Shown: one piece after another, positions 31,987-57,779 of the stretch
How positions within the stretch are numbered: the stretch's first letter is position 1
Layout: each line of letters begins with the position of its first letter
Assembly (NCBI GenBank): GCA_009746045.1
Contig: RPFO01000104.1
Coordinates: 3,426,534-3,490,533 of the forward strand
Origin: Mesostigma viride
Lineage: Eukaryota > Streptophyta > Mesostigmatophyceae > Mesostigmatales > Mesostigmataceae
DNA length: 64,000 nucleotides
Reading direction: 5' to 3'
Position numbers and translations under genes: made by a program
Notes under the pieces: generated by a model
What the model saw: the letters and a program-made list of their open reading frames with translations, nothing else
The model's database searches: none
Told to the model about the DNA's origin: nothing

Positions 31987-34900
31987 TCACGCATTGGCGG
32001 GGCCACCTTGTGGGCGTTTTTCACCCTCCCCCTCCCCCTCCTCCTTCTCCTCCTCCTCCTCCTCGTCATCTGCTTGGTCCAGTATAGTGACCGCAAGCTG
32101 AGCAAGCGCGTGCAGCGTGCGCTGCACCTGCGCATGGTATTCCGGTAGCCGCTTGCGACGCAGCGCCAAGCAGCGCTGGAGGGCCTCCTCCGCCTCCTGC
32201 AAGGGGACAGATGGGCAAGCCAAGTTCTTTGTTATTATAAATGAGACTGGCATAGTACTCTATGACATGGCCCCGTGCACGGCAGGAAATGCCTCCCTCC
32301 CTCCCTCCCTCCCTCCCTCCCTCCCTCCCTCCCTCCCTCCCTCCCTCCCTCCCTCCCTCCCTCCCTCCCTCCCTCCCTCCCTCCCTCCCTCCCTCCCTCC
32401 CTCCCTCCCTCCCTCCCTCCCTCCCTCCCTCCCTCCTCCCTCCCTCCCTCCCTCCCTCCCTCCTCCCTCCCTCCCTCCCTCCCTCCCTCCCTCCCTCCCT
32501 CCCTCCTCCCTCCCTCCCTCCCTCCCTCCCTCCCTCCCTCCTCCCTCCCTCCTCCCTCCCTCCCTCCCCTCCCTCCCTCCCTCCCTCCCCCTCCCTCCCT
32601 CCCTCCCTCCCTCCCTCCCTCCCTCCCTCCCTCCCTCCCTCCCTCCCTCCCTCCTCCTCCCTCCCTCCCTCCCTCCCTCCTCCCTCCCTCCCTCCTCCCT
32701 CCCTCCCTCCCTCCCTCCCTCCCTCCCTCCCTCCCTCCTTCCATACAAGCCGGCAGCGCGCCATGTGTGTGAGACGTCAGGTACATTGCCATATGACTTT
32801 GGGCCCTGTGCATGCATTCGACTGCTTTGGTACCATCCATCTCCCCCCCTTCATCCATGCACCCATGCGCCCGCATCTGTGCTTGTGCATCTGACTATCG
32901 GTCATGCGGTGTCATTGGATCTGGTCTTGCTACGGCGCAGGCCACAACGCCTAGTGCAAAGAAACAAAAGCACCCCCTGTTAAACACAAAAAGCATAGAT
33001 CGTGTGCAGGGGCGTAACAGGAATTTCCCAAGCTACTTCACTGGTTTTCCTTCAATCAACAGAACTGCAACTGCTGCTTGAGCTATGTGTCATCACCCAC
33101 ATCTCGTCCCCCCCCCCCCTCTCTTTTCCATCTTTAAAGGACCTTTGTTACTGTTTTTGTTTTCAGGCACGACTAGGATGGCAGTACAAAGTGTCTGTTG
33201 AGACCAGCCATACAGTATATTATGTTGTTGACACGATTCCATCAACCAAGTGGGTCGGAGCGTCAAGTTATCAATTAATTGATTCATGACTGTACTGGAG
33301 ATCCTGGCAACGGCCTCATGATGACGAAGAAGGGCTATCACTTGTTAGCGTGCCAATTTGCTGCACGCATAGCTAATGCAGTGCAGGGCAGTCAGTTACG
33401 TAAGAGTTGGGTACAATATCGTGGGCATAGTCGAATGTCAATCAACTACTATCCCACCATCCACGGCACTCTCGCGTCTTGTCGAACTTCTTCACTTGAA
33501 GAAGTTCTGACTTGAAAGGCCCATGACTTGAAGAATTTTAGACAAGATGTGAGAGGTGCTACGGATGGTCACAGCGCCTGGTCTGATAGTAGTTGCTCGT
33601 CATTCGACTATGCCCACGATATGTATTGTACCCAACTCTTACGCAACTGACTGCCCTGCGCTACGTTAAGCCATGCGCACAGCAAATCGGCACATTAACA
33701 GGTGATAGCTGTGCAACACTACAATGCAGCCCTTTCCAGATGTCCGGTACAGTCTCCAATCAACTAGTGTACAACTGGCTACTCCAATCCATATAATTGC
33801 ATGAACAGTGTTGATAACATTTATTATGATATGACTGGTCTCAAAGGACACGTAGTACTGCCTGGCCACGACGACCTGGTCGTTCCTGAAAAGAAAAACA
33901 GTAATGAAGGAATCAACACAGAGCTAGTAACCCATCTTTTCAGCACAACATTCCTTACAGGGCATCCACGCAAAAATGCTAACGTTTGTCACCATCAGGG
34001 TGGCAAGAACATAAGATCCACTATCATAGCGACATACACACATGTGCGGCAATGTTGCTTCCCAGCCACTGCCTGTGTGGCAATCGTGCAACAATGCGCC
34101 AGTCTAGGACTGTGGGGTGGTCACCGAAATCCACCCGACAGCTAGGTTCACAAAAATGGCGGTGGGACCTACAGTGAACCGGCGTTCGCCCGTGTACGCG
34201 CCGGCTAGCCGTTCCCACGACGCCGCAACCTGTAAGTCCTCGGGCCCCAGCACCGCCTCCTGGTCCTTGATGAGCTGGCGGTAGACCGCGGCCGCCTCGG
34301 GAAAGGCCTGCCGGTGCAGCAGCAGCGCGCCAAGCCCGTGCCGTGCCATTAACACCTGGCGACCGCAACCGGTGGGCGCGACCCGCATGGGCCAAGCATG
34401 GCAGGTGCGACACGCAGTAAGCGCAGTACCAAGAGCACGCATCAGATTAGATAAGATTAGATAAGATTAGATCCAAGCAGATGAAACTAGAGAGCGCGCA
34501 TGGGATTCTGGTTGTTAAGAACTGCGAAAAGTAGGGGCATCAGCTGCGATGGTTTATGGGCAGAAACCGCGAGTGGTGCGGCACACAGCACACGGAATAA
34601 AGGCGAGGTATAAAAGTGCGGCATCAAAGGGGAGGTGTAAAGGCAGAGCATGCATGGGTAGAAAACACGAGTGCGCGTGGCTGCCGGACGCGGAAACCTC
34701 CCCCCTTTTCCTTGCCAAGCTTAGCACACCATTGTAGAGAGAACGCATCCGATAATGTAGAGACATAACACTTGAGTGCATTACATAGCACCACAACGCA
34801 TCACAACGCATCACAACGCATCAGATAATGTAGAGACATAACACTTGAGTGCATTACATAGCACCACAACGCATCACAACGCATCAGATAATGTAGAGAC

Positions 34901-37900
34901 GTAACACTTGAGTGCATTACATAGCACCACAACGCATCACAACGCATCAGATAATGTAGAGACATAACACTTGAGTGCATTAGATAGCACCACAACGCAT
35001 TACAACGCATCAGATAATGTAGAGACGTAACACTTGAGTGCATTAGATAGCACCACGACGCATCACAACGCATCCGATAATGTAGAGACATAACACTTGA
35101 GTGCATTACATAGCACCACAACGCATCACAACGCATCAGATAATGTAGAGACATAACACTTGAGTGCATTACATAGCACCACAACGCATCACAACGCATC
35201 AGATAATGTAGAGATTTAACACTTGTGCACTCAAAATGATGGGATACAAGGGGTACAAGAGCCCCCGCCAGCACATGGTTAAAAAAAGAAGAAAAGGAGC
35301 AAATCATCGTGTTGCCGTGAAAAGAATGCAGGCCGGGCAGAGAATACAAGGGCATCAACTGCCACTTGCATACGATGCGGAAAAAACTCTGGGCATGGTA
35401 CAGGATGGTTGGTGACATGGCCCCCACCCACCCTTTTGTTCGTGGCCCCCATCGGCCCTCCCTCATTGGCCTTTACAGCCTACCCACGGCAAGAGTCATA
35501 CTAGCATGGGACGCACAACGCCCACGGCCTACTCACCACTTTGTTAGTGCCTCCCACCAACCTTGAACATCAATTTGACCAGCCCCTGTGTACAATGGAT
35601 AAAAATGGCGGCATCCATTGCGCCCACCCACCTTTCACTTAAGCGTCCCCACCCACTTCCTCCTAGATTTCGACCCAGCGAGGGTGTGGAAGCAACAAAT
35701 GGTGCCGACTGCCCACCCGCCGCCTAGTTGATGCCCCCCGCCCCCCACCATCCACCCCCCTTTGTCAAACGATTAATGCCCAAAACGCCCAACCACCTTC
35801 TTGTTGGCCCCTCTGGATCCCCCCCCCCCACCTCAGGGCGCTTACAGCCGAACCACAGCGAGAGAAATCCTGGCAAGAGACGTACAACACCCTTGGCCCA
35901 CCAACCTCCTCGTTGGTGCCCCCCGCGCGGCTGTCCATGATGTCCAGCACACGGAAGAAGAGCTCTTCCGCTTCAGCGGCCGGTGACGGTGTGTTTGGCG
36001 CTGCCGGCGATTAGCACCAGATGTGTACGAAGGAAAAGAGGGTAGAAGAAGACAAAAAATAGACAGTATGAAGACGATTAGAGAAAATGATGAAAGAAGA
36101 AGATTAAGCAGAAGAGGAGAGAAGAAGATAAAAAGACAGGAAGAAGAGGACAGAAATGAGGAGAGAAGAATGGACAGAAGAAGAAGAAGACGAAGGCATT
36201 GGGCCAATGTGAGATTAGATATGAGGCGATGTACAGCAGGATGGGAGGGGCATTACTCCAAAACGGCATGCACAGCACTCAGAGAGTCATGATTGGGGGA
36301 GAGACCGAGGCCACATGGAACAAGTCAGAAGGAAATACAGGGGAGAGGCCAGCATTCCTGAAGGCAGGGGGGAGAGCACAGGCAGGAGCGCAACCGAGAG
36401 GCTTGCACTTCATTACTTAGCAAGAAAGAAACCTCATCCTTAACTCTGAAACATTCTTTAATAAGGGAATTCCCTAGCTGGTAGCTGAAAAAGTGACAAA
36501 GCGAGAAGCGTTGGTGACAAAGCCACATCTGTCACCAACCAGAGAGGGAGGCCTCGCACGCCTCATGCCATGTGCCGAGGGCGGAAAGGACTCCCCAATC
36601 CCCGCCATCCGGCACAAAGGCGGAAAGGCTTCCCCGCCATCCGGAAACATTATTCTAAAAAGCTCAATATAAAAAATAAAATTCTCCAACGAAGCTCAAA
36701 AGCGGAAACAAAAACAAATAATAGTAGTATCGATAATGTAGCTCTATGAACCGCAACCATGGCGCTCACCACCGGATGCCGACGCAGGTGCCTTGGCAGC
36801 GGCCAGCGCGACGCCCGGCTTGCGCACGAGCAAGGTGGCAAGGCAATTGATTGCGCGGCACCGCTGCAGGTGCCACTCGCCTTGCCCGCACTCCTCCATG
36901 AGGGAGATGCCCCGACGCAGCAGACTCTCGACTTGGGCAATGCCCTCGGAGAGCTCGGCTGCAAGGGAGACGGGGCAGTTGGATAAGCTCATGAGATAAG
37001 AAAGCACATACGAGCAGCTTTTCGACTTCAGGGCAGTGCCCTCAGTGAGCTCTGCTGCGGGGGAGGAGGGGCAATACATGAAGCGGTCTGAAATGAAAAT
37101 ATATAATTAACTTCTTCACTTGGGCAATGCTCTTGGACCGGTTGGTTGCCAAGGAAACGGGGTGGTAATACGAGAGAAAACGAAACATGATACAGAAGAC
37201 AAGGGGGTTCTCGACCCAATTATAGTGGACGATCACTGTAGCCAATCACAGTACATGATTCAAGTAGACGATAAAGTGTTGCACTTGTCCCTAAGCAGCA
37301 TCCAAAACAGTGATGCGCCGGACCCACACGCCTTTAGTACAACCACAGCAGAATAATCCAGGAAAGAGATAATTGAATCGTTGAATCAATCAATAGTTAA
37401 CTGAACCATCGAATCCATGAGCAGGGGCCAAGGAACATATATAAGTACAACAACTGCAGCAAAAAAAATAGGGCAGAAGATGTACTGATTATAATTCACG
37501 AGCAGCCGCCAAAAAAAGTCCTCCTATCAGCCAATGTTAGGAAGGAAGCCAAGGAACAGAATAGAAGGGAATCGAAGAAATAGAATAGAAAGGAAGCCAA
37601 GGAACAGAATAGGAAGGAGGCCCCCATCTGCTCACCTGCGCTCATCGGCTTGCCCTCGCCTCCGCTGCCCGCCCCCCCGCTCGTGAGCGCGCACCACCGG
37701 TACCACCCGAGCGCGCACGAGGCCTTGGCCTGCGCGAGCGGGTCCCCCGCCTCCTCGGCCGCACGAAGCATCCCTGACGCTCCTTCCGCCAGCCGCCCCG
37801 CGTCCACACGCGCCACCAGGACCAGGTACCCTGCGTACAGCAGGTCCAGGAACGACCACAAACCCGTGGCCTTCTGCGCAAAGAAGCTGATCCGGAGCGC

Positions 37901-40900
37901 GCACGCGCGGGGGTCCTCTGCGTCCGGCGGCGCGTACGGCTCGTGGGCGCTCGACCAGGACTTGGACAGGCTGCCGGCGCCACCTGGCGGCGTGACGGAC
38001 GACTGCCGGATCACATTCCCGACCGGCAAGGAAGACTCGGACGACACCCTGCCCGCATTGTCATCTGTCTTGTCGACGCTCTCCACTGGAGCAGGCTGGT
38101 CCACGCCTGCTTCTTCCAAAGCCCCGCCGACGTCCTTGCCCTGGGCTCCCGCCGCTGACGTCGCACCTCCCGCGCTGTTCACGTCCTTGCCTCCCGGGCC
38201 CGAGAGCCCCGGCGCGGTCCCCAAGCTTGATGTGCCCACCGCCGCAGGGGGGTTATTGCTGGCGTCTGCCCCCCGGTTCCCACGTTTCGAGCTCGGGGCC
38301 TTGGACCAGCCCAGCTGGCGGATGATCCAGGGACCGTCCTCAGAGGGCGCCTCGGGGCCCTTGGTCACGAGGTGCCACCACGCCTGGTCGCTGAACATGC
38401 ACGAGGTGAGCGGGATCTGCTGCAGCTCGGCCCAGGAGAGCACCATCTCGATGTAGTGCGCACAGCGGTCAAGCAGGTAGAGCGCGCCGAGCGGCGACGT
38501 GCACGAGTACATCACGCTCGCGCGGTGGATCAAGCAAGAGACGCCCGTGACGGTGCCGCAGCGGACCTGGTCCACGAAGAATGCGTTGTGGGGATCGCTG
38601 GGTCGAGCCTGGCTCAGGATCACGCGCCCGCGCGCGGCGCTGCCGCTGCTTCCAAACAGGTCCCCATCCTGCGAGTGTCCCAGCGCGGCCGCCCCCATGG
38701 CTGCACCGCCGAGAGCCGTCACCGCCGACGACGACGACGCGGCCACCGACGCTTGTGCTTGCGCCGCCACAACCGAGGGAGTGGCACCGCCGGGAGGCAA
38801 TCCGTCGGAAGAGGCCAGGTGGGCATGATTTGAGAGTGTGTGGCCCGCGCCGGCGCCGGTGCGGGGGGAATTTTGCGGCGATGAGTGCGTGTATCCCTGC
38901 TCAAGCAGGGCCTCCAGGGTCACCTGGCGGACGAGGGACGGGAGCCAGAAGCGACCATTCAGCGCGTCCTCCTGCCGGGGCGGGGGAGAAGAAAAAGAGA
39001 AAAAGAGAAAAAGAGAAAAAGAGAAAAAGAGAAAAAGAGAAAAAGAGAAAAAGAGAAAAAGAGAAAAAGAGAAAAAGAGAAAAACAGAAAAAGAGAAAAA
39101 GAGAATAACATTAGGGAAAAAAGAAGAAGGATAGCGACGGGTAAATGGATGGTTACATCCTTCCCTCCTGAGGGGGGGGGGGAGGTAAAAGAAGAGGTTC
39201 GGGATGGGTCTATGGATGGGTATGTGGATGGGTACATTGACAGGCATGTTCATGGGTATATTGACGGTTACGCTGGTGGGTGTATTCGTTGGTCTATCGA
39301 TGGTGGGTGTATTCGTGGCTCTATCGATGGTGGGTGTATTCGTGGGTCTATCGATGGTGGGTGTATTCGTGGGTCTATCGCTCGTGGGTGTATTCATGGG
39401 TCTATCGATGGTGGGTGTATTCGTGGGTCTATCGATGGTGGGTGTATTCGTGGGTCTATCGATGGTGGGTGTATTCATGGGTCTATCGATGGTGGGTGTA
39501 TTCGTGGGTCTATCGGTGGTGGGTGTATTCGTGGGTCTATCGATGGTGGGTGTATTCATGGGTCTATCGATGGTGGGTGTATTCGTGGGTCTATCGATGG
39601 TGGGTGTATTCGTGGGTCTATCGATGGTGGGTGTATTCATGGGTCTATCGATGGTGGGTGTATTCGTGGGTCTATCGATGGTGGGTGTATTCGTGGGTCT
39701 ATCGATGGTGGGTGTATTCGTGGGTCTATCGCTGGTGGGTGTATTCGTTGGTCTATCGATGGTGGGTGTATTCGTTGGTCTATCGATGGTGGGTGTATTC
39801 ATGGGTCTATCGATGGTGGGTGTATTCGTGGGTCTATCGCTGGTGGGTGTATTCATGGGTCTATCGCTGGTGGGTGTATTCGTGGGTCTATCGCTGGTGG
39901 GTGTATTCATGGGTCTATCAATGGTGGGTGTATTCGTGGCTCTATCGCTGGTGGGTGCATTCGTGGCTCTATCGATGGTGGGTGTATTCGTGGGTCTATC
40001 GATGGTGGGTGTATTCGTGGCTCTATCGATGGTGGGTGTATTCGTGGCTCTATCGATGGTGGGTGTATTTGTTGGTCTATCGATGGTGGGTGTATTCATG
40101 GGTCTATCGATGGTGGGTGTATTCGTGGGTCTATCACTGGTGGGTGTATTCGTGGGTCTATCGATGGTGGGTGTATTCGTGGGTCTATCGATGGTGGGTG
40201 TATTCGTGGGTCTATCGATGGTGGGTGCATTCGTGGCTCTATCGATGGTGGGTGTATTCGTTGGTCTATCGATGGTGGGTGTATTCGCTGGTCTATCGAT
40301 GGTGGGTGTATTCTTTGGTCTATCGCTGAACTGGGGATGACAGGGGCTAATAGAAGATACACCGTTCGCCCGCAGCAACCATTCAACGATACCATTAACG
40401 AGCACGGGTCTACGGCTGCGCAAGGACGTTGGACGGTGACAATGGTGGCGCAACTACACCGTTCACCCACAGCAACCCATGATGACGCCAGTTACGACAG
40501 CTTTCCCCCGCAGCAACCAATGATGGGGGGGGGGGAACCGACGACACCAGGGAAGGAACTCACCTGCAGCAGTCAGCGCTAGCAACGATGAGCAGATCGT
40601 AAGCCGTACAACATAGCAACTAGACGAGCCCACAGTAGCCCACAGTAGCCCACAGTAGCCCACAGTAGCCCACAGTAGCCCACAGTAGCCCACAGTAGCC
40701 CACAGTAGCCCACAGTAGCCCACAGTAGCCCACAGTAGCCCACAGTAGCCCACAGTAGCCCACAGTAGCCCACAGTAGCCCACAGCAGCCCACAGCAGCC
40801 CACAGTAGCCCACAGTAGCCCACAGTAGCCCACAGTAGCCCACAGCAGCCCGCAGTAGCCCACATCAGCCCACAGTAGCCCACAGTAGCCCACATCAGCC

Positions 40901-43900
40901 CACAGTAGCCCACAGTAGCCCACATCAGCCCACAGTAGCCCACATCAGCCCACAGTAGCCCACAGTAGCCCACATCAGCCCACAGTAGCCCACAGTAGCC
41001 CACAGTAGCCCACAGTAGCCCACAGTAGCCCACAGCAGCCCACAGCAGCCCACAGTAGCCCACAGTAGTCCATAGCAGCCCACAGCAGCCCACAGTAGCC
41101 CACAGTAGCCCACAGTAGCCCACAGTAGCCCACAGCAGCCCACAGCAGCCCACAGTAGCCCACAGTAGCCCACAGTAGCCCACAGTAGCCCACATCAGCC
41201 CACAGTAGCCCACATCAGCCCACATCAGCCCACAGTAGCCCACTATACGTCCCCACACTCACCCGCACCAACCCGCGCGCAACCAGCCGCCGCAACAGCG
41301 CCAGCGCCCGTGACGGCAGGCTGTAGCACCCCGCCACAACGTTCGCCTCCGCCTGGGTGAAGTGGCCAGGGAGGTGGCTGATCGCGTCAAGGCACGTGCG
41401 GCTGTCCATGTCCAATGCGTCCACGCACATGCGGACCACCCGCCGCATCTTGCGACGGTTGTCTGCCGCGGCCGCCACCGCCGCGGCCGCTGACGGCGCC
41501 GCTGCCCCGGGGTCCCCTGCCGTGAATGACAGGGAGCTGGCCAGGGGGGCTGGGGGGGATGACGATGGCATTCCTGTCGCCGCCGCGACGGCCTGGGTGT
41601 CAACTTCGACCGTCCATGGGTTCGCGGTGCCGCTCCCGCCGCTGGTGTCGATGCCGGCCGGATGAATGCCCCCGCCGCCCCCAGGATTACCATCCGTGCG
41701 GCTATTACTGGCATTGTTGTTGCTATTCGCGAGGGCGAGCGCGCGCTCGACGGTGATGCTGCCCCACCCGATCGCCGCGCCGAGGCAATGCACTGACGTG
41801 GCGTGCGTGCCGCAGACCCCCCTCACGAGCGCGCGCGCCTGCGACGTGGTCACGCTCACCCCTTGATCCACGGGGACGGAGCGCAGCAGCAACCGCGTGG
41901 CGTCGTCCTCGGAAAGCGGCTTGACCTCGTGGACGAGGAAAGAGATGCTGGCAGACGCGCACGCGGCGCCCCATTCCGCCCGCATCCCCGCAAGCGTGCC
42001 TCCCCTTCCACCCCCACCATGCACTGCCGCCGATGACGGTGCCGGGTGCGCGTGAGCGCCAGACGAGGTTCCTGTGTGGCCACTCATGGGAGGAGCCCCA
42101 CCAGACTCTGCCGACAACGCCGGGGGATCGGCCGGATGGTTCCCGCTGGCATCATGCTGACCTGCCGCCCCGTTGGCGCCAACACTGCTGGCATCTGCCC
42201 CAGCCACTCCCCCCACCCCCCCAATGGTGACCGCGGCGCACGACCCGTCCATATCGCTCCCTGGCCAGCACGCGAGCACCTGCAGGTTGCCACGGGCTTC
42301 CCGCACGACACGCACAAGCACCGTCCTCACGATTGCCAGCTGGTCGCGCGACAGCCCTTGAAGGCCATGGACGACGAGGCCCACGCGGCCCCGGTCCACC
42401 CATGGCGCGGGCCCACGCTGTCGCCCGATGCTATCCCCCGCCACCGAGCGGCCCGCCGTGCTCCCCGCCTGGGAGTGGTCGTCGGCGAGGGGCGTATTGT
42501 TGGCGGTCGCGACCGGGGCCGCGTTGTCTGCCGCCGGGGAAGAAACCCCAGGCTCTGCTGCCGTCACGGCCCCCGTGGCCGGGGAGCCTGTTCCCACAGC
42601 TGTCGCGGCGCCTTGCACGGGGTTGCCATCGGAAAAAGAAGGCTTGAGGTCGACGTCCACTTGTGACGCGGACGCGGAGGATGCTGGTGCTACCACCCCG
42701 GCACTCGCGCTGGCCTGCATTTCGTACAGTGGTCTTGCCCCCCCGGGCAGCAAGGAAGACGAGGAGGACGAGGAACCCTGCGTGGAGAGCCCAAGGCCTC
42801 CGGCGCCACTCTTCTCATTATCGCTGGCAGCACCGGAAGAAGCGGTGGCCGAGCCAGCCTGATTCTTGTTGTTGTTACGGGCGGGCTCCCCCCACGGAGC
42901 CGCCCCAGTGATCAGCAGCTCCGATAGGAGCGCGTAGACCGCGTCCCGACCCCGCTGCGGGACCAGGAGGCCCAACGCGTGGCCGATGCGGCGAGCCACC
43001 CCTTCCTCGTCGGTCACCCCGCAGATATGGGCGGAGTAGACCGCGGACCAATGGGCATCGTACAGGTGGAGTGACCGCGCGGCCGCCACCGCCACGGAGA
43101 GCTTGCCCACGCCTTGTGCGCCCGTGACGAGTGTAACAAGGCCGGCATCCCCTGCCGCGATGATGCCGCGGCGGATGGTGGCCACCTGCGTGAGTGGAGG
43201 TGGAGGCCGCGGCAGTGAGGGTGATGGGGCCGTGGCGGCAGGAGGCATGGGGTGGTGGCGGTGGCGATAAGGGTGATGGGTTGGTGGTGGCAGAAGGTGA
43301 TGTGAAGGCCGGCGCAGTTGGCGTAGGGCAGTGCGCAGGGGCACATGTGAATTGAAAGGGGCAGTACGTGTTTGCACGTGTGCAGGAATGCATGGCAGTG
43401 GCGGCAGTCACGTGGGAGGTGGGTAGTAGGCTTGGAGTAGGACAGGAGCAGCAGCACTAGACATGGGGCAGTGTGCTCGCGGGCACATGTGAGCTAGATT
43501 AGACCGTGAATGACGAGACATGACGAATGGCATGAGTGGGAGTATGTCGCAACCTTGTGCGCGTCACAATTACAAAAACAAACAGGAAACACAAAAAAAC
43601 GACCGACCGACCTACCGACCGACCGACCGACCGACCGACCGACCGACCGACCGACCGACCGACCGACCGACCGACCGACCGACCGACCGACCGACCGACC
43701 GACCGACCGACCGACCGACCGACCTACCGACCGACCGACCGACCGACCGACCGACCGACCGACCGACCGACCGACCGACCGACCGACCGACCGACCGACC
43801 GACCGACCGACCGACCGACCGACCGACCGACCGACCGACCGACCGACCGACCGACCGACCGACCGACCGACCGACCGACCGACCGACCGACCAAAACAAC

Positions 43901-46900
43901 AAACAAACACAAACAAATAATTGGGCAAGCAGACACATACTAAAAAGATCAGCTCGTTGGTTGGCCTCACCTGGTCCGACCGGCCGATCACCTGCGCCCC
44001 CCCCACAGCGTGCGGCCCAACAAGCAGGCCCCACAGCGACGCCTGCGGGGGGACCTGGTGCTCCGCCGCCACCAACGCCTCCACTTCCGCGCGCGTGGGC
44101 GAGAGCGACTTGACGAGCGCGAGGCGGGGGGGTGGGGTTGCGGCGACATTATCATTGCTATAATAAGCATTCACGGCATCGTTAGTGGCAGCAATGGCGG
44201 CCCCTCCTTTCTCCGCCGATTGCCTCCCGCCCACTGGGGTCAGATCGGTCGAGCTCCTCCAGGAACCATCACGCGCGGCTGATTTGTCGAGCGACAAGTC
44301 AACGGAATCCGACGCCCCCGAACACGCCAGCAGTGTGACGGCAGACAGGATGCTCATGCCGGGCGGGAACGCAAAATCCAGCTCCCACGGGGTGACGACG
44401 CGCTCACAGGCGAGCGCGCCCCCGTGGCCGCGCGTGCGCCGGCATAAGCGGTCCTGGAATCGGCGGCGCGAGGCGGTGGACCATACCAGCGGGTCGATCT
44501 GGGAAGGCAGGTTGCCGGGCAGAGCGTGGGGGAACACGCGCCAGAAGTGGTCCCAACTGACCTTCTCGAAACTGGTGGGGCGGCGGGGTGTGCATTGGGG
44601 AACCCCATTTGGGGGTGGACGGGCGGGCAGGGGGGAGGTGGGACGAGGATGAGGCAACGAGATAGGCATTAATAGCAACCTTCATTTTATCTACTTTACT
44701 TTAATATAAATGAGGGGTGCTGAAACGGGGATCTCACACAACGTATCCTTTCGGGGGGCGAGTTCCTTGGGCAAGGAAGCAAGGAAGACACCTGAAATCA
44801 TCCCGCTCCCCCGCTTAAGACACACAAGGATACAAACATACACACTAACAAATACAAGCGGAAGAAATGCAAAAGCTAGAGACCTAGTGCGGGCTGGCAC
44901 ATGCCATAGCGTGGCCCGTGTCGCGTACTACGGCAGGTGCTCACGCGCCAACCTGCACACACAATCAGCCCATCTCATGCACGCAAGTGCACACGTGACC
45001 CACCATGATACATCTGGTGACTGATGCCGGCACACGCCCCATCCAATGTGCTGCAGGTGCATTGGCGCAAACGCGCACACACGAGCAGCCCTCACGCTGG
45101 CCACGTGGGGAGGCTTTCTGCCTTTTGTAGAGCATGATCCTTCATCAATCAAGCAAGCCATGCCAGCAAGCAAGCAAGCCATGCCAGCAAGCAAGCAAGC
45201 CATGCCAGCAAGCAAGCAAGCCATGCCAGCGAGCAAGCAAGCCATGCCAGCGAGCAAGCAAGCCATGCCAGCAAGCAAGCAAGCCATGCCAGCGAGCAAG
45301 CAAGCCAGGCCAGCAAGCAAGCAAGCCATGCCAGCAAGCAAGCAAGCCATGCCAGCAAGCAAGCAAGCCAGGCCAGCAAGCAAGCAAGCCATGCCAGCGA
45401 GCAAGCAAGCCATGCCAGCAAGCAAGCAAGCCATGCCAGCAAGCAAGCAAGCCATGCCAGCAAGCAAGCAAGCCATGCCAGCAAGCAAGCAAGCCATGCC
45501 AGCAAGCAAGCAAGCCATGCCAGCAAGCAAGCAAGCCATGCCAGCAAGCAAGCAAGCCATGCCAGCAAGCAAGCAAGCCATGCCAGCAAGCAAGCAAGCC
45601 ATGCCAGCAAGCAAGCAAGCCATGCCAGCAAGCAAGCAAGCCATGCCAGCAAGCAAGCAAGCCATGCCAGCAAGCAAGCAAGCCATGCCAGCAAGCAACC
45701 AAGCCATGCCAGCAAGCAAGCAAGCCATGCCAGCAAGCAAGCAAGCCATGCCAGCAAGCAAGCAAGCCATGCCAGCAAGCAAGCAAGCCATGCCAGCAAG
45801 CAAGCAAGCCATGCCAGCAAGCAAGCAAGCCATGCCAGCAAGCAAGCAAGCCATGCCAGCAAGCAAGCAAGCCATGCCAGCAAGCAAGCAAGCCATGCCA
45901 GCAAGCAAGCAAGCCATGCCAGCAAGCAAGCAAGCCATGCCAGCAAGCAAGCAAGCCATGCCAGCAAGCAAGCAAGCCATGCCAGCAAGCAAGCAAGCCA
46001 TGCCAGCAAGCAAGCAAGCCATGCCAGCGAGCAAGCAAGCCATGCCAGCAAGCAAGCAAGCCATGCCAGCAAGCAAGCAAGCCATGCCAGCGAGCAAGCA
46101 AGCCATGCCAGCAAGCAAGCAAGCCATGCCAGCAAGCAAGCAAGCCATGCCAGCACACACGCCCCACGCCACACACTGCAGATGTGCCCCAGAACGTGCG
46201 CAAGCAACCAGCAATGTGCGCAGGCAACCACCATCGTGCGCAAGCAACCAGCAACGTGCGCAAGCAACCACCCACACGCCCCATCCCACGTACTGCAGGT
46301 GCTCGCGCCAGAACGTGCGCAGCGTGAGGTGGCGGATGATGTACTCGGGTCCTGACCGCCCCTGCTTCAGTTCCTGCACCTTTGCGTCTTCCAGAAGCTC
46401 CGCGTAGAACGCCTCCTTGGTCAGCGACGCATCCTGAAATCGCGCGGAATGTGTGTATGTTGGGGGGGGGGGGGGGGGAGGGGCGGAGGAAGGAGGGGAG
46501 GGAGGCGGTCAGACACGCGACCTGTTGGCAGTGAGCATGTGTTGGGTTGGGTTGGATTGTGGGAGATTGTTTTGAGTGGTGGGTTTTGGGTTATAAGTGT
46601 GTATATGTGGTGGTGGTGGTGGTGGTGGTGGTGGTGGTGGTGGTGGTGGTGGTGGTGGTGGTGGTGGTGGTGGTGGTGGTGGTGGTGGTGGTGGTGGTGG
46701 TGGTGGTGGTGGTGGTGGTGGTGGTGGTGGTGGTGGTGGTGGCGGCGGCGGCGGCGCAGCGGCGGCGGTGGCAGCGGGGCTGTTGGTGTTGGTGTTGGTG
46801 TTGGTGTTGGTGTTGGTGTTGGTGTTGGTGTTGGTGTTGGTGTTGGTGTTGGTGTTGGTGTTGGTGTTGGAAGGTGGTGGTGATGGCGGCGGATGTGGTT

Positions 46901-47155
46901 GTGGTGGTGGGGTGGGGCGGGTGGGGGGTGGGGGGTGGGGGGGGTGGCGGTGCCGGTGGTGGTGGTGGTGGTGGTGGTGGTGGTGGTGGTGGTGGTGGTG
47001 GTGGTGGTGGTGGTGGTGGTGGTGGTGGTGGTGGTGGTGGTGGTGGTGGTGGTGGTGGTGGTGGTGGTGGTGGTGGTGGTGGTGGTGGTGGTGGTGGTGG
47101 TGGTGGTGGTGGTGGTGGTGGTGGTGGGTGGTGGTGGTGGTGGTGGTGGTGGTGG

Positions 47156-47186
<31 letters not shown>

Positions 47187-50100
47187 GGTGGTGGCGGCGG
47201 CGGCGGCGACGGTGGCAGCGGGGGTGTTGGTGTTGGTGTTGGTGTTGGTGTTGGTGTTGGTGTTGGTGTTGGTGTTGTTGGTGTTGGTGTTGGTGTTGGT
47301 GTTGGTGTTGGTGTTGGTGTGGGTGTTGGTGTTGGTGTTGGTGTTGGTGTTGGAAGGTGGTGGTGGTGGTGGCGGATGTGGTTGTGGTGTTGGGGTGGGG
47401 CGGGTGGGGGGTGGGGTGGGTGGCGGTGCCGGTGGTGGTGGTGGTGGTGGTGGTGGTGGTGGTGGTGGTGGTGGTGGTGGTCGTGGTGGTGGTGGTGGTG
47501 GTGGTGGTGGTGGTGGTGGTGGTGGTGGTGGTGGTGGTGGTGGTGGTGTGGTGGTGGTGGTGGTGGTGGTGGTGGTGGTGGTGGTGGTGGTGGTGGTGGT
47601 GGTGGTGGTGGTGGTGGCGGCGGCGGCGGGGGGGGGGGGGCGGCGGCGGTGGCGGCGGCGGCGGCGGCGGTGGTGGTGGTGGTGGTGGTGGTGGTGGTGG
47701 TGGTGTGGTGGTGGTGGTGGTGGTGGTGGTGGTGGTGGTGGTGGTGGTGGTGGTGGTGGTGGTGGTGGTGGTGGTGGTGGTGGTGGTGGTGGTTTCACCG
47801 ACACGTCCTAGGGGCTTCAGGACGTTAATGGGGTGTCTTTTGGTGTGGTTGGTGGTGTGGGTGTGGGTGTGGTGGTGGTGGTGGGTTAGGGGGTCAGCTA
47901 CACATCCTGGGGTTTGCGGAAGGTGGTGGGTCGTGCGTAATGGGTGGTAGGTGCAGGGTGGTGAGTGGTGGCTGATGTGCGCTCGGCCATTCTTGGTCCC
48001 ATCCTCCCCCACCCTCAACAAAGTGAAAGGTCTATCGCGCCTGCTGTCACCCACCACACACCCACAAGCAAACTAACGTTGCCTTATGGCCACCCCATTC
48101 GCTCCCATCCTCCCCCACCGTCAACTCTGCAGATTACGCACTGCACTCTACGCCAGAAGTGTCCCCAACCGCTCACCCCCACCGGCTCAATCAATCCCTT
48201 ATCCACACCACCAACCACCGCTACCAAAGAACCGTTCACAGCGTCATAACCACCAACTTCAACTCCACAAACCGTTTGACGCGCATGCTGCCCCCCACGC
48301 CCATGCCCACTCAGCCCGGCCGCATGCTCAGAAGGCATTGCCACCATGCCCACGCCAACACCGTCATCGTCACCATCGTATGTCCTAACCCACCTCTAGG
48401 TCTGCATCAAGTTTGTCGCGCATGCATGCTGTCCCCTACGACCGATCCGACCATCCATCAACACAGGGAGACCCCCGACAGCCCAACGACGCCCACCTTG
48501 AGTTCTATGTACAGCTTGTCGCGCATGCTCAAAAAGCACAGCCATCATCACCATCATCATCACCATCACCGTCACCATCGCCATCGCCATCATCATCATC
48601 ACCATCCTGACCCCACCTTGAGCTCTGCGTACAGCTTGTCGCGCATGCTCTCCCCCACGTCCGAGCTGACCACGCCCTTGGCCCCGCCGTACTCCACCAT
48701 GAGCTCGTACAGCACCTCATCCTCTGGGATATACGGCGAGTCCCCCGGTTGCACCCCCCCCCCCGCGACGGGAGTATCCGGCAGCACGGGTGTCAGTAGC
48801 GGGGCCAGCAGATCCTGAGGGACAAACGGCAGCCCCTCGAGCTTCCTCGCGACCTCCACGATGCCATCATCGAGGCGGGCAAACTCGGCTGGATCGTCCG
48901 GCATCGCTAGCATCCGGTACATCCACCCGGGAGCCGAGAATTGGGCCAAGTACTCGCGGACGTCACCCAGCTGCTCGAGCGCTGCGGTGCAAAAGTCCTG
49001 GGGGGGCGGGCACCCGGCCTCGAGCAGCTCCTCGAACAATACTTGCATCTGGTACGCGCGGCGCGTGAGCTGGCGGCAGGACCGCTTGTACACGCGCGCC
49101 GCGTTCGCCAGCGTCAGCATCTCAGAGAGGAGTGAGACGACGCGGTCCCCCGGGAAAGGGAGAGGCTTCCGCATGGCCTTGGAGAGGCGGCGCGCGTGGC
49201 CCTTGGACGCGACCACGGTTTCCACGGCCTTGGCGGCCTTAGTGTTAGCAGCCGAGTTGGGGGTGATGAGGACGGCTGGAATGGCATCCGCCACCGTCGC
49301 AAACGTGCCATTCTGGGCCGGCCCCGGCGCCTGCGAATTCCATGTGTATATGGGTGGTGGTGGGTGCATGGTCGTAGGGGGGTTGGGGGCCCGGGGGGGG
49401 GGGCAGAAGGGGGTTAAGAGGGTTTGTTGATTGGTCACAAAAAAAGTACGATACAATCAGCGACATTGGATCGCCTGGAAAAGTTCCTTCAAGTGGGTGG
49501 GTGGGCGGGCGGGCGGGCGGGCGGGCGGGCGGGCGGGCGGGCGGGCGGGCGGGCGGCGTGGGCGGGTGGTGGGCGGGCGGGCGGGCAGGTGGGCGGGCGG
49601 GTGGGTGGGTGGGTGGGTGGGTGGTCGGTCGGTCGGTCGGTCGGTCGGGCGGGCGGGCGGTGGGCGGGTGGGTGGGCGGGCGGGCGGGCAGGTGGGCGGG
49701 CGGGTGGGTGGGTGGGTGGGTGGGTGGGTCGGTCGGTCGGTCGGTCGGTCGGTCGGCGCGGGCGGGCGGGCGGGTGGGCGGGTGGGTGGGCGGGCGGGCG
49801 GGCAGGTGGGCGGGCGGGTGGGTGGGTGGGTGGGTGGGTGGTCGGTCGGTCGGTCGGTCGGTCGGTCCGTCGGTCGGTCGGTCGGTCGGTCGGTCGGTCG
49901 GTCGGTCGGTTGGTCGGTTGGTCGGTCGGTCGGTCGGTCGGTCGGTCGGTCGGTCGGTTGGTCGGTCGGTCGGTCGGTCCGTCGGTCGGTCGGTCGGTCG
50001 GTCGGGCGGTCGGGCGGTCGGGTGGGTGGGTGGGTGGGTGGGTGGGTGGGTGGGTGGGTGGGTGGGTGGGTGGGTGGGTGGGTGGGTGGGTGGGTGGGTG

Positions 50101-51801
50101 GGTGGTGGGTGGGTGGGTGGGTGGGTGGGTGGGTGGGTGGTCGGTCGGTCGGTCGGTCGGTCGGGCGGGCGGGCGGGTGGGCGGGTGGGCGGGTGGGTGG
50201 GCGGGCGGGCGGGCAGGTGGGCGGGCGGGTGGGTGGGTGGGTGGTGGTGGTCGGTCGGTCGGTCGGTCGGTCGGTCGGGCGGGCGGCGGGCGAGCGGGTG
50301 GGCGGGTGGGTGGGCGGGCGGGCGGGCAGGTGGGCGGGCGGGTGGGTGGGTGGGTGGGTGGGTGGTCGGTCGGTCGGTCGGTCGGTCGGTCGGTCGGTCG
50401 GTCGGTCGGTCGGTTGGTCGGTCGGTCGGTCGGTCCGTCGGTCGGGCGGTCGGGCGGTCGGGCGGTCGGGCGGTCGGGTGGGTGGGTGGGTGGGTGGGTG
50501 GGTGGGTGGTGGTGGGTGGTGGGTGGGTGGGTGGGTGGGTGGGTGGGGGTGGGTGGGTGGGTGGGTGGGTGGGTGGGTGGGTGGGTGGGTGGGTGGGTGG
50601 GTGGGTGGGTGGGTGAGTGGGTGGGTGGGTGGGTGGGTGGGTGGGTGGGCGCGGGCAGTTAGGGGTTGGGTTGAGTTGGGTTGGGTGGTTGGGTGGTTGG
50701 GCGGGCGGGTGGGCGGGCAGTTAGGGGTTGGGTTGAGTTGGATTGGGTGGATGGGTGGGTCAGGCAACCATCATACATCATGGCTGAACCATGCGTAAAG
50801 TTTGCTCCTTTCTGCCTTGGGCCGGGGAAGTGGCTCCTTGACCATGCCTCCCCTTTCCCCGAGCATAACAGTGTCATCCCAGCCCCAGCCACTCCATGGC
50901 ACCCAGATCATGCTATCCACGCAAAGATGCTATCCCCCGCCAACGCCACCCAAATGGCCATCGTGTGGCTGCTGGCCGGGGTGGCCGCAATCCACTTCTA
51001 CACCAGAATCTAAGAGAAGTGTACATCCCACCCAACCCTACTAGTGTCCTAGCACTACCATACTGCTTTAAGTGGATACTTCAAGTGCTGCTTGAAGTGG
51101 ATGCTAGAGCTACTGCAATCCAACTGATAGTACATGTGGAAAAAGACCCTCAATTATCTTAAAACTGGGAATCCTGAAGTCAGGTATAAGGGAGTAACAT
51201 GTCGGGTATGGGAGCGGGGGGGGGGGGGGGGGGGATCAAATCTGTTTTCCTAGTGCCACCACTGTCGCAATGCCCGAATTCCTGAGGCAGACAAGGCCTC
51301 CTGCCAGACCCACTTCTTCTGATACCTAGGGCGCGATACCTAGGGCCCAATACCTAGGGCCCAATGCCTAGGGCCCAATACCTAGGACCCCGTACCTAGG
51401 ACCCACGCAAGCGATGGCCGCTGTTGTATTTCTAGTGATGTGCCCCAGTAGTGCGACGTGCCCCAGTAGTGCGACGTGCCCAGTAGTGTGACGCGCCCAG
51501 CAGTGTGGCGTGCCCAGTAGCATGGCGTGCCCAATAGTGTGGCGTGCCCCACTAGTGTGACGTGCACATTCTGGCGAGCACGCAAACGCAGCTCGCACAG
51601 GGAGGGAGGCAGCCCGCAGTCGGCTTCAAGAAACACGATTCGGTACCCAGCATGTTCGTTGCATAGCTTGGATCCCTCCCATACGTCGGCAAACGGGCTT
51701 TCATGAAGTGGACAAGGAGAAACGTAACCTACAATGGAGTCCTTGCTTTCACTCACCTTTGTATCCGGACCGTTTGCGGGCTGTGACACGCAACAACCCA
51801 T
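31987..51801 (-). CDS. NLR-like protein: putative lipidated N terminus, MLKL-like four-helix bundle, STAND NTPase, C-terminal TPRs
   Basis: Exons (minus strand): E1 51801-51568 (probable), E2 49330-48617, E3 46433-46294, E4 44571-43971, E5 43185-41263, E6 38971-37636, E7 36958-36770, E8 35970-35906, E9 34355-34173, E10 32196-31987. Phases match throughout, giving 1,864 codons and a stop. E1 starts MGCCVSQP, a dual acylation type. In E2 (about residues 140-250) [40 protein letters not shown] and [14 protein letters not shown] follow the spacing of the MLKL N-terminal bundle. E3-E4 hold a helical linker ([31 protein letters not shown]). E5 carries the P-loop GAQGVGKLS (about 585), a Walker-B-like [25 protein letters not shown] and a winged-helix-like [16 protein letters not shown], with large disordered inserts. 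E6 continues [21 protein letters not shown]9-E10 form TPRs ([40 protein letters not shown]) and an acidic tail. Role in immunity or cell death is inferred. E1 linkage rests on phase and position; E8 uses AAG/GTTGGT sites. Weakest parts: E1, E8. Confidence 0.8.
32289..32740. repeat. (CCCT)n array in NLR-like intron E9-E10
   Basis: About 450 bp of CCTC/CCCT tetramers with occasional three- or five-base slips. Open in every frame on both strands; not coding. Confidence 0.97.
33147..33907. mobile_element. Foldback (long inverted repeat) element, about 760 bp, in intron E9-E10
   Basis: The left arm (33147 to about 33445) begins TTACTGTTTTTGTTTTCAGG; the right arm, read inward from 33907, begins TTACTGTTTTTCTTTTCAGG. 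The arms are similar throughout (GAGACCAGCCATA/GAGACCAGTCATA, GGGCAGTCAGTT, AAGAGTTGGGTACAATA, CGTGGGCATAGTCGAATG). A middle of about 140 bp holds a smaller inverted pair (CTTCTTCACTTGAAGAAG). It has no coding capacity and resembles a MITE or foldback transposon. Target duplication unclear. Confidence 0.85.
34440..34472. repeat. AGATTAGATA microrepeat
   Basis: Three or so tandem AGATTAGATA units inside intron E8-E9. Confidence 0.8.
34740..35225. repeat. 63-bp tandem repeat, nearly eight copies, intron E8-E9
   Basis: The unit contains CATAACACTTGAGTGCATTA, CATAGCACCACAACGCATCA and GATAATGTAGAGA. 63 is a multiple of three, which creates a false 221-codon frame on the minus strand. Confidence 0.95.
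35400..35830 (-). repeat. Donor-side echoes of NLR-like exon E8
   Basis: The E8 end and donor on the plus strand (ACCAACCTCCTCGTTGGTGC at 35900-35919, with CAAGAGACGTACAACACCC just before) recur with changes near 35790 (ACCACCTTCTTGTTGGCCCC), 35532 (TCACCACTTTGTTAGTGCCT, with GGGACGCACAACGCCCACGG before it) and 35425 (CACCCTTTTGTTCGTGGCCC). The 35475-35555 block parallels 35850-35920 for about 80 bases. Confidence 0.75.
36020..36205. repeat. AGA-rich purine tract in intron E7-E8
   Basis: GAAGAAGA-type imperfect purine repeat on the plus strand, which is a long pyrimidine tract on the sense strand. It lies 35-240 bases upstream of the E8 acceptor and may serve as an extended polypyrimidine region. 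Confidence 0.6.
37028..37165 (-). repeat. Acceptor-side echoes of NLR-like exon E7
   Basis: The E7 acceptor region on the plus strand (TTGGGCAATGCCCTCGGAGA, GCTCGGCTGCAAGGG, 36932-36966) recurs at about 37030-37062 (GGGCAGTGCCCTCAGTGAGC, TCTGCTGCGGGGG) and 37121-37150 (TTGGGCAATGCTCTTGGACC). On the sense strand the nearer copy reads CCCCCGCAGCAGAGCTCACT and keeps the CAG; the farther copy has lost it. Confidence 0.85.
37530..37620. repeat. Short tandem repeat directly after the E6 donor
   Basis: Three units of AGGAAGCCAAGGAACAGAAT with AGAAGGGAATCGAAG spacers, starting within about 20 bases of the GT donor at 37635. Confidence 0.8.
38985..39112. repeat. (AAAAAGAG)n array upstream of the E6 acceptor
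   Basis: GAGAAAAAGAGAAAAA-type repeat on the plus strand. On the sense strand it is a 110-base C/T run ending 15 bases from the E6 AG. Confidence 0.95.
39275..40335. repeat. 27-bp minisatellite, about 39 copies, intron E5-E6
   Basis: Unit key parts GGTGGGTGTATTCG and TGGGTCTATCGAT, with G/A and C/G variants. 27 is a multiple of three and the unit has no stop in most frames, so the array reads as IDRPTNTPT on the minus strand and GGCIRGSID on the plus strand. It lies between two firmly spliced exons and is intronic. Confidence 0.97.
40625..41247. repeat. 10-bp minisatellite, about 62 copies, intron E5-E6
   Basis: Unit CCCACAGTAG with CAGCAG, CATCAG and CGCAG variants. On the sense strand it starts about 15 bases after the E5 donor. 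Confidence 0.97.
43600..43893. repeat. (GACC)n array, intron E4-E5
   Basis: About 72 tetramers with only two CTAC interruptions. It is open in all frames (PTDR on plus, SVGR on minus). Confidence 0.98.
44930..45072 (-). repeat. Distant echoes of the E3 donor region
   Basis: The E3 end on the plus strand (CCCACGTACTGCAGGTGCTC, GCGCCAGAACGTGCGCA) is echoed near 45035 (CCAATGTGCTGCAGGTGCAT, TGGCGCAAACGCGC) and near 44925 (CGCGTACTACGGCAGGTGCT, CACGCGCCAACCTGCAC). These lie on the far side of the 21-bp array. Confidence 0.7.
45147..46156. repeat. 21-bp minisatellite, about 48 copies, intron E3-E4
   Basis: The unit is GCCATGCCAGCAAGCAAGCAA with rare GCGAGC and AGGCC variants. It is highly homogeneous. 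Because 21 is a multiple of three it gives false frames of 370 to 480 codons ([14 protein letters not shown]). Confidence 0.98.
46157..46275 (-). repeat. Near echoes of the E3 donor region
   Basis: ACACACTGCAGATGTGCCCC followed by AGAACGTGCGCAAGCAACC (46171-46210) repeats the E3 end. Three further GTGCGCAAGCAACCA-type blocks follow up to 46273. Confidence 0.75.
46603..47796. repeat. (GGT)n and (GGTGTT)n compound microsatellite, about 1.2 kb, intron E2-E3
   Basis: Long GGT runs alternate with GGTGTT runs (about 46785-46870 and 47225-47352) and a repeated linker (GGTGGGGCGGGTGGGGGGTG). The whole GGT / GGTGTT / linker cassette is present about twice, so it is a repeat of repeats. Confidence 0.98.
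48250..48530 (-). repeat. Donor-side echoes of NLR-like exon E2 (three copies, 106-137 bp apart)
   Basis: The plus-strand form of the E2 end (CCCACCTTGAGCTCTGCGTA, CAGCTTGTCGCGCATGCTC, 48612-48651) recurs at 48492-48530 (CCCACCTTGAGTTCTATGTA, CAGCTTGTCGCGCATGCTC), 48388-48429 (ACCCACCTCTAGGTCTGCAT, AGTTTGTCGCGCATG) and 48251-48290 (CACCAACTTCAACTCCACAA, GACGCGCATGCTG). Similarity falls with distance from the exon. The nearer two keep the GT donor. Confidence 0.92.
48540..48608. repeat. (CATCAC)n/(CAT)n microsatellite
   Basis: Runs of CATCATCACCATCAC between the genuine E2 donor and its first echo. Confidence 0.9.
49497..50650. repeat. Compound GGTG/GGCG/GGTC tetramer array, about 1.15 kb, intron E1-E2
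   Basis: Blocks of (GGGT)n, (GGGC)n and (GGTC)n recur in the same order at least three times. It is open in all frames on both strands; not coding. Confidence 0.97.
50651..51400. other. Remaining E1-E2 intron sequence
   Basis: No exon supported. A plus-strand frame ending near 51013 encodes a hydrophobic tail ([19 protein letters not shown]) but has no partner exon. A poly-G run lies at 51218-51233, and a short CCTAGGGCCCAATA repeat at 51320-51400. Confidence 0.45.
51412..51567 (-). repeat. Tandem repeat of about 17 bp starting at the E1 donor
   Basis: On the sense strand GTGCACGTCACACTAGTGGG is followed by GGCACGCCACACTATT-type units for about eight copies. The array begins exactly at the proposed donor. 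Confidence 0.8.
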
Positions 51802-53996: not shown

Positions 53997-55175
53997 ATGG
54001 GTGCATCCCAGTCAATTGATGCCAAAAAGCATGTTGTAGTTGTCGGAGCCGGTTTCGGTGGAAAGGCGATGGCAAGTCTGCTTGATCCTTACTGCCGCGT
54101 GACGCTCGTGGAGCAGCGGGGGGGGTTTCTCTTTAAGGTTGGAGGCCCAAGGGCCGTGCTTAACGATTCTTATGCGAAGGACTGTATCGTTCCACTTGAT
54201 CGCGTTTTAAAGCGCGGCAAGGTCAGAACCGGCGTTGTCACTAAGATCTCGCCAACCACCGTGACGTTCGCGGACCAGAAAGATCCGCTTGACTATGATT
54301 ACCTCGTGCTCGCGGTGGGCGCACGCTCCGACAGCGCGTGCGAACCGCCTGCAGGTTGTGATACGATCCCAGATATGGTAGAGCATTACAGAAAGGTCGC
54401 TGCCGCCATTGGCGCTGCCAAGGAAATAGTTCTCGTCGGCGGCGGTCCCGTCGGAGTGGAGCTTGCGGGGGAGATCCGCGACAAGTACCCGGACAAGAGC
54501 GTGGTCATCGTGTGTAGCGGGCCAGGGCTGTGCCACAGCCAGCAGGGCATCCCCGCGCCCAAGCCTTTTCAGGATGAGCTGGGCAAGATCTGCGCGAGCA
54601 AGAAGATTGAGGTCAAGTACAACGTGAAGGCGAACCTGTCGGCGTTCAAGCCGCAGCTCGAGCAGAACCATTTCTTCGCGTCCTCGGCGCCCGTCAAGGT
54701 GCCCCTATCGGACGGGACGGATCTCCCCGCTGACCTCATCATTGGGTGCGTGGGCGCCACCCCCGGGGGCAAGCAACTTGAGGGGATCCCTGTCGACGAC
54801 CATGGCCTGATCAAGGTGAACAAGTTCCTCCAAGTCGAGGGCTTCGACAAGGGCAACGTGTTTGCGATCGGCGACTGCAACAACAGCGGCGACATCAAAA
54901 TGAGTGGAACGGCCGGGTCCAAGAAAGGGATGCCAATGGGGTCCCCGCCGGGACAGGCAGACACGACATTCAAGAACATCCTGGCCATGGACACCAAGGG
55001 GAAGCCGGTCAAGGCACCGGTCCCTATCAAGAAGGCGACGATGATCGTCCCGGTGGGCACCAATGGCAAGGTGGGCGCGTGCGCTGGCATCCCGAGCCTG
55101 TTTTCGAGTATGGTCTTGGGGCTCAAGGCCAAGGACTACTTCGTTGGCATCCACCGGAAGACGCTCGGCTACTGA
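53997..55175 (+). CDS. AIFM2: FSP1/AIFM2-like FAD-dependent NAD(P)H oxidoreductase, intronless
   Basis: 392 codons in one exon, starting AAAATGGGTGC. The N terminus MGASQS fits an N-myristoylation signal, as in animal FSP1 (MGSQVS). Order of motifs: FAD dinucleotide fold VVVVGAGFGGKAMASLLDPY (about residues 13-32); Y-D-Y-L-V-L-A-V-G-A region (about 100-109); NAD(P)H fold IVLVGGGPVGVELAGEIRDK (about 143-162); LIIGCVGATP; and the second FAD signature GNVFAIGDCNN (about 285-295). Animal FSP1 (373 residues) reduces coenzyme Q or vitamin K at membranes with NAD(P)H and so suppresses lipid peroxidation; AIF-like proteins of plants and algae share the fold. Whether the substrate is a quinone here is inferred. 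The N terminus has no targeting peptide. It is divergent from the NLR-like gene, 2.2 kb away. Confidence 0.9.
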   Translation: MGASQSIDAKKHVVVVGAGFGGKAMASLLDPYCRVTLVEQRGGFLFKVGGPRAVLNDSYAKDCIVPLDRVLKRGKVRTGVVTKISPTTVTFADQKDPLDYDYLVLAVGARSDSACEPPAGCDTIPDMVEHYRKVAAAIGAAKEIVLVGGGPVGVELAGEIRDKYPDKSVVIVCSGPGLCHSQQGIPAPKPFQDELGKICASKKIEVKYNVKANLSAFKPQLEQNHFFASSAPVKVPLSDGTDLPADLIIGCVGATPGGKQLEGIPVDDHGLIKVNKFLQVEGFDKGNVFAIGDCNNSGDIKMSGTAGSKKGMPMGSPPGQADTTFKNILAMDTKGKPVKAPVPIKKATMIVPVGTNGKVGACAGIPSLFSSMVLGLKAKDYFVGIHRKTLGY

Positions 55176-57402: not shown

Positions 57403-57779
57403 ATATTTAGACAGTAAGTAGACTCGAATGATTTATCTAGCACCAAATTCGAAAGGCTTGCATCACTCCCCGGAAAGGAGAACTTTTGCGGATGACTGTA
57501 GGTGTAAGTTGGCGATGCCCTAGGATCCGGAGACGTCCGTCCCTATAGTCAGCGAAACTGAAGTTGGTGCGAGAGGTCCCCAGTTCGATTCCGGTCGGAT
57601 TCATTTGTAGATCGCGTTTTCCGCGTTTTCCGCGGCCCGGCACTGAACGCAAATGGTTTTCACCTTTGCGGCGTGCCAAATCAGAATAAGTAGACTCGGT
57701 TAGACTACTGTAGATTTCTTTCCACATGCAATGCTCGGCGGCGCCGACGGGGCCGTGTGTTAATGTTTGCGCCTATATA
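57403..57779. other. Spacer with a tRNA-like B-box remnant
   Basis: CAGTTCGATTCCGGTCGGAT at 57572-57591 resembles a pol III B box, but no matching T-stem or cloverleaf can be drawn. Otherwise nothing recognised. Confidence 0.35.

Follow-up and report, generated by a model that had tools for sequence, protein, structure and literature searches.

Arabidopsis PML5, an acylated coiled-coil (CC) nucleotide-binding leucine-rich repeat receptor (NLR), no longer causes cell death when its residues G2, C3 and C4 are mutated; the acylation sites of RPS5 are important for RPS5 function, and 21 CC-type NLRs (CNLs) of Arabidopsis Col-0 contain putative acylation sites (PMC11467418; here and below, statements on papers cited by PMC number refer to individual passages of those papers). 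NLR-like proteins have been reported from streptophyte algae such as Chara, Chlorokybus and Klebsormidium; they contain TIRs or four-helix bundles of CC/RPW8-like type, and their C-terminal repeats are truncated or of another kind (PMC10952240). In addition, three of five tested Chara CC-type domains were active in N. benthamiana (PMC11218826). Mesostigma is among the deepest streptophyte branches (PMC9490259), and in its strain CCAC 1140 one protein combines an NB-ARC domain with winged-helix and APAF1_C domains (PMC8891106). We analyzed a 64,000-nucleotide stretch of Mesostigma viride DNA (contig RPFO01000104.1, positions 3,426,534–3,490,533; hereafter the window), whose minus strand contains the gene of an annotated protein, P0001 (eukprot jgi/Mesvir1 Mv17461-RA.1; 1811 residues). 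Its sequence is best read as a divergent form of the kind of NLR-like protein reported from other streptophyte algae. We see an even chance that P0001 is a membrane-anchored cell-death or signalling protein derived from the signal transduction ATPases with numerous domains (STAND), which would combine a divergent MLKL-type module, a probable pseudo-NTPase core and tetratricopeptide repeats (TPRs).

The gene extends from position 51801 down to 31987 of the window and is composed of ten exons and nine GT-AG introns (14379 bases of intron in total). The exon phases match across 1811 open codons, and the translation equals P0001 letter for letter. A hand-spliced join of six exons was identical to P0001 over 1633 of 1633 residues, while exon 1, exon 8 and the last 3 bases of exon 7 were set only once P0001 was known. 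Since the ten-exon join translates exactly to the annotated protein, exons 2 and 5 (E2 and E5) belong to one gene model. This agrees with an earlier sequence-only reading of this DNA, which had joined an MLKL-like N-terminus, a STAND core and TPRs in one gene: E2, E5 and the TPR exons lie on the minus strand where that reading had placed them, and exon 2 contains a 24-residue stretch as well as the 13-residue peptide quoted from E2. The layout is supported in this way, but the MLKL and NTPase parts proved weaker than had been claimed. In one Mesostigma genome project, which reports the deposition of full-length transcriptome data, >90% of the genes are reported to be supported by expression, possibly for an annotation other than Mesvir1 (PMC6947507).

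The third-position G+C content is 0.71–0.85 in nine of the ten exons and 0.53 in exon 1, which has 45 bases; the value for a neighbouring gene is 0.75. Codon preference was calculated with one neighbouring gene as the reference and with ends of exons 7 and 8 slightly different from the final model; in every exon the coding frame outscored the other two frames of its strand, in exon 1 by only 0.01. The degenerate nucleotide motifs, the long Gly/Ala/Ser-rich inserts, the tandem-repeat-filled introns and the lack of relatives in protein searches (see below) would fit a decaying or mis-annotated gene, that is, an old NLR-like gene with a non-functional nucleotide-binding core, still open by chance. 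We regard this as very unlikely, given the 1811 codons open over ten phase-matched exons with nine GT-AG introns, the high third-position G+C in nine of these exons and the TPRs, which score above the family cut-off.

Exon 1 opens with MGCCVSQ. By eye, this sequence fits a motif for N-myristoylation (G2) and S-acylation (C3, C4); the rule applied to the myristoylation site was that of PROSITE PS00008. P0001 carries in this motif the N-terminal mark of acylated (PML-type) NLRs. The predicted signal, which resembles that of RPS5 and was absent from the earlier description, appears to be the strongest new link of P0001 to plant NLRs and strengthens its interpretation as a candidate receptor. Myristoylation is also found in the ciliary protein nephrocystin-3 (NPHP3). 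Mesostigma is biflagellate, and the MGCC N-terminus could also belong to a ciliary protein of the NPHP3 type, with a helical N-terminus, a P-loop core and TPRs, delivered to the flagella by myristoyl-chaperone transport. NPHP3 itself combines myristoylation with coiled coils and TPRs, and its targeting depends on UNC119B and ARL3 (PMC6678300). The N-terminal module of P0001 points elsewhere, since its profile match is to MLKL_N.

In Pfam, MLKL_N (PF22215) was the best family for a 128-residue core of exon 2 (residues 73–200; E = 0.0049, 16.8 bits against a curated cut-off of 27 bits, profile positions 3–111 of 142), a core that was trimmed after the match of the surrounding 285-residue open reading frame (ORF) to the same family (E = 0.033, 14.1 bits) was known. 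Because MLKL had been named before the profile scan, the chance for a single family (E divided by 24736 models) may be used; it amounts to approximately 1e-6 for the ORF and 2e-7 for the trimmed core. The sole other Pfam match of the core was MCAfunc (E = 0.15), a family that we take to be related to MLKL. MLKL_N was found in none of 20 control sequences (one reversed, nine shuffled and ten shuffled within hydrophobic/polar classes); one of the first ten controls matched CRF at E = 0.077, and the class-shuffled ones matched nothing. RPW8 and Rx_N were not listed for the core at E≤10, a scan in which the HMMER filters drop weak matches.

The AlphaFold2 model of the core, computed without an alignment, contains helices at core residues 3–23, 28–47, 54–74, 90–107 and 115–122 (predicted local distance difference test score, pLDDT, 73.8; predicted template modelling score, pTM, 0.66). 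Both the lengths of the helices and the long linker that separates helix 3 from helix 4 are similar to the MLKL pattern. The model of the whole exon 2 was poor (pLDDT 55.9) and its structure matches were uninformative. For the core model, Foldseek listed nothing at E≤0.001, and the best VIA-align match, to a designed repeat (Z = 11.9), lies within the range that the tool reports as chance for helical models; from a helical model built on a single sequence, such an outcome counts neither for nor against MLKL. The claim that the E2 product matches the MLKL bundle was too strong in its wording; the proposed comparison of E2 with MLKL, HeLo and RPW8 profiles yielded the sub-cut-off MLKL_N match and no listed RPW8. 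Homology of the exon 2 core to MLKL appears likely, although it is marginally supported and unproven.

For the region encoded mainly by exon 5, the Gly/Ala/Ser-rich inserts were removed and the remaining core was compared with Pfam. AAA_16 (E = 0.03, starting from QVIGR), AAA_22 (0.085) and AAA_18 (0.16) were recorded, all below their cut-offs; the NCBIfam matches NorR (0.042) and RFC (0.062) were taken as general P-loop noise. Inspection by eye revealed a STAND-like order of segments: (i) a GR motif, (ii) a P-loop, (iii) a Walker B position, (iv) a PLSEDDA segment and (v) a winged helix. The Walker A position (residues 522–530) reads GAQGVGKLS, with L after K and the usual T/S missing, and the Walker B position (residues 770–776) reads LVVHGLQ in our own alignment, with H where an aspartate is expected. 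By this alignment, P0001 lacks both an intact GxxxxGK[ST] and the Walker B aspartate. Our assignment places LQVLACWPG where the sensor is expected, THATS in place of GLPL and LPS in place of MHD. Of the P-loop NTPase with NLR-like ordering that had been proposed, the order is retained, with marginal support from AAA_16, and the NTPase motifs, by our alignment, are not; the search of the E5 region against NB-ARC and NACHT listed neither family. The core is a probable pseudo-NTPase with apparently degenerate nucleotide-contact motifs and a marginally supported STAND-type ancestry. Since the Walker and sensor positions look degenerate, the standard ADP-to-ATP switch is probably not the route of activation.

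The C-terminal repeats of P0001 are well supported: TPR_12 (E = 8.6e-9, 35.9 bits) and TPR_10 (E = 5.6e-7, 29.8 bits) both score above their Pfam cut-offs. The prediction of C-terminal TPRs instead of LRRs was thereby confirmed, and a repeat region of the kind that serves as sensor in NLRs is present. No kinase, pseudokinase or TIR family was listed in the Pfam scan of the full-length protein. TPR_NPHP3 also matched P0001 (E = 1.5e-6), in favor of the ciliary alternative, but its 28.3 bits are far under the cut-off of 100 and weaker than the general TPR_12 match, and no further NPHP3 family was listed at E≤10 for P0001 or the insert-stripped core (the HMMER filters again dropping weak matches). 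An NPHP3-type protein is in our judgment improbable. The bacterial NCBIfam family FxSxx_TPR matched residues 1659–1790 (E = 2e-6; 26.6 bits against a cut-off of 300), which suggests another possibility: a regulator consisting of a nucleotide-binding oligomerization domain (NOD) and TPRs, comparable to the STAND-TPR proteins of bacteria. The N-terminal helices of such a regulator would be a generic coiled-coil or adaptor and would not damage membranes. In line with it, the exon 2 core matched designed repeats and helical proteins of no particular kind in the structure comparisons. The lipidation motif in exon 1 and the MLKL_N match (ranked first in Pfam for the core, absent from the 20 controls) speak against such a regulator, which we consider possible, though rather unlikely.

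Several results weigh against an MLKL-like, STAND-derived receptor. Besides the sub-cut-off score of the core, MLKL_N was not listed at E≤10 when the full-length P0001 was scanned, and no MLKL chain occurred among the best 50 of 565 Foldseek rows for the core (a single-sequence helical model), among its best 50 VIA-align rows, or among the 50 rows listed by either program for the whole-exon model. The module begins approximately 73 residues into the protein, unlike the terminal alpha-1 helix of plant CNLs. NB-ARC and NACHT were not listed at E≤10 for the insert-stripped core. In four of the ten exons (1, 8, 9 and 10), some reverse-strand frame exceeded the coding frame in codon preference. Searches of approximately 5.8 billion proteins returned only P0001 itself with (i) the spliced model (E≤1; top 7989 candidates by shared words scored), (ii) residues 62–345 (E≤10; 3585 candidates scored) and (iii) region 73–535 of the 1216-residue insert-stripped query (E≤10; top 7992 candidates scored). 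Distant relatives may escape these searches, since they must share 5-residue words with the query and, in (i) and (iii), the top candidates alone were scored.

Other databases gave a similar picture. Six short peptide patterns detected no relative of P0001 in viral contigs and prokaryotic genome contigs; the insert-stripped core and the exon 2 core had no match in the PDB sequence search or in PADLOC, and the ORFs of exons 2, 5 and 6 had none in NCBIfam at E≤1. One PDB sequence match of exon 2 (E = 1.6) was irrelevant.

Compared with the acylated CC-NLRs of the RPS5/PML5 group, P0001 shares a G2/C3/C4-type signal (PMC11467418), a helical module, a NOD-like core and C-terminal repeats; it differs in having TPRs in place of LRRs, no detected NB-ARC, degenerate-looking motifs and a module placed away from the extreme N-terminus. 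Its similarity to the streptophyte-algal proteins lies in the predicted helical module and the alternative repeats, whereas its module matches MLKL_N, with RPW8 not listed; the passage of PMC10952240 on these proteins does not name Mesostigma. Fungal HeLo/MLKL-like NLRs have an MLKL-related N-terminal bundle, with an extra N-terminal helix in basidiomycete forms (PMC9815663), but P0001 differs from them by its lipid-anchor signal, its degenerate core and its place in the plant lineage. The weak MLKL_N match links P0001 to MLKL and plant MLKL proteins, from which it is separated by the kinase or pseudokinase family, not listed for P0001. Plant TIR-NB-ARC-TPR (TNP) proteins have the same NOD and TPR layout (PMC10952240), whereas P0001 has no listed TIR and a degenerate core. 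NPHP3 resembles it in myristoylation (predicted for P0001), a helical N-terminus and TPRs (PMC6678300), and differs in that the TPR_NPHP3 match of P0001 is below cut-off and its module MLKL_N-like. Proteins of this kind are known already, and membership of P0001 in the acylated NLRs or in MLKL is not established. In the literature searched, no report was found of an acylation signal combined with an MLKL_N-like module, a degenerate core and TPRs. No paper joining Mesostigma with MLKL was found in a search that left most subscription papers outside, while six mention Mesostigma viride together with NLR. The main text of a genome paper on Mesostigma contains none of the terms NLR, NBS, immun and resistance (PMC6947507).

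If P0001 is a membrane-anchored, STAND-derived protein, its MGCC N-terminus would be myristoylated and S-acylated and would keep it at the membrane at rest. The divergent MLKL-type module would be the output, followed by the NOD-like core with eroded nucleotide contacts, and the TPRs would act as the sensor of a ligand or partner, whose engagement may free or cluster the helical module at the membrane. Oligomerization of the module could then perturb the membrane or recruit partners, leading to cell death or stress signalling; activation may be scaffold-like or reliant on a partner NTPase, and the role of the protein may be in immunity or cell death. A stronger version, which seems unlikely to us, describes a lipid-anchored executioner in which an MLKL-family bundle is fused to a pseudo-NTPase STAND core and the TPR sensor would drive membrane killing with no need of a nucleotide switch. 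Such a protein, near the base of the streptophytes, would be a self-contained receptor-executioner, either predating the CC-NLR resistosomes or invented independently.

Since Mesostigma branches so deep, an acylated MLKL-like, NLR-like protein would bear on the time of origin of membrane-acting plant receptors, and on whether the acylation signal preceded the LRR. The host had been called a green alga; it is an alga, for which streptophyte is the more telling label. The pseudo-NTPase form, if true, makes the dispensability of the STAND nucleotide switch testable. The positions of all exons are given in Table 1.

Table 1. Exons of the P0001 gene and the MLKL_N-like core (window positions)
Feature	Position	Strand	Description
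Exon 1	51757..51801	(-)	45 bases, 15 residues; signal predicted for N-myristoylation at G2 and S-acylation at C3 and C4; outside the span of the sequence-only reading
Exon 2 (E2)	48617..49330	(-)	Residues 16-253; holds the MLKL-like helical module
MLKL_N-like core	48776..49159	(-)	Residues 73-200, within exon 2; Pfam MLKL_N match and predicted helices
Exon 3	46294..46433	(-)	Linker; without Pfam match
Exon 4	43971..44571	(-)	Linker; VIGRSDQ motif at its end opens the NTPase-like core
Exon 5 (E5)	41263..43185	(-)	STAND-like core to winged-helix-like segment; long Gly/Ala/Ser-rich inserts
Exon 6	37636..38971	(-)	End of winged-helix-like segment (1148-1157) and pre-TPR region; ORF without Pfam or NCBIfam match
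Exon 7	36770..36958	(-)	From exon join equal to P0001
Exon 8	35906..36000	(-)	Placed from P0001
Exon 9	34173..34355	(-)	TPR; TPR_10 and TPR_12 pass their cut-offs for P0001 but not for the ORF alone
Exon 10	31987..32196	(-)	TPR (TPR_12 stretch 1724-1778 of P0001), acidic tail, stop codon

The introns of this gene are full of long tandem arrays (39274–40325, 45146–46155, 46607–47793 and 49493–50717), with units of 27 bases (x39), 21 bases (x48), 3 bases and 4 bases; several of the arrays are open in many frames. Intron 2 contains, at 48509–48530, an exact copy of 22 bases that also occur close to the 3′ end of exon 2, and a GT a few bases further on is a possible cryptic donor, unused in the gene model. 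A repeat of the start of exon 7 near position 37,000, also unused, was seen by eye only and is absent from the blastn listing.

Three further features were identified in the window. A single-ORF gene of an FAD/NAD oxidoreductase (53997–55175, plus strand; Pyr_redox_2, E = 1.3e-27), presumably of the FSP1/AIFM2 type, lies head-to-head with the P0001 gene, and its product starts with MGASQS, a possible myristoylation signal, as in P0001. A reverse transcriptase fragment (57714–58100, plus strand) reached 26.7 bits with RVT_1 (E = 5.2e-6), short of the cut-off of 29.6. The region 62403–62801 (minus strand) matched DUF7869 above the cut-off (E = 7.2e-13) and is possibly part of a mobile element.

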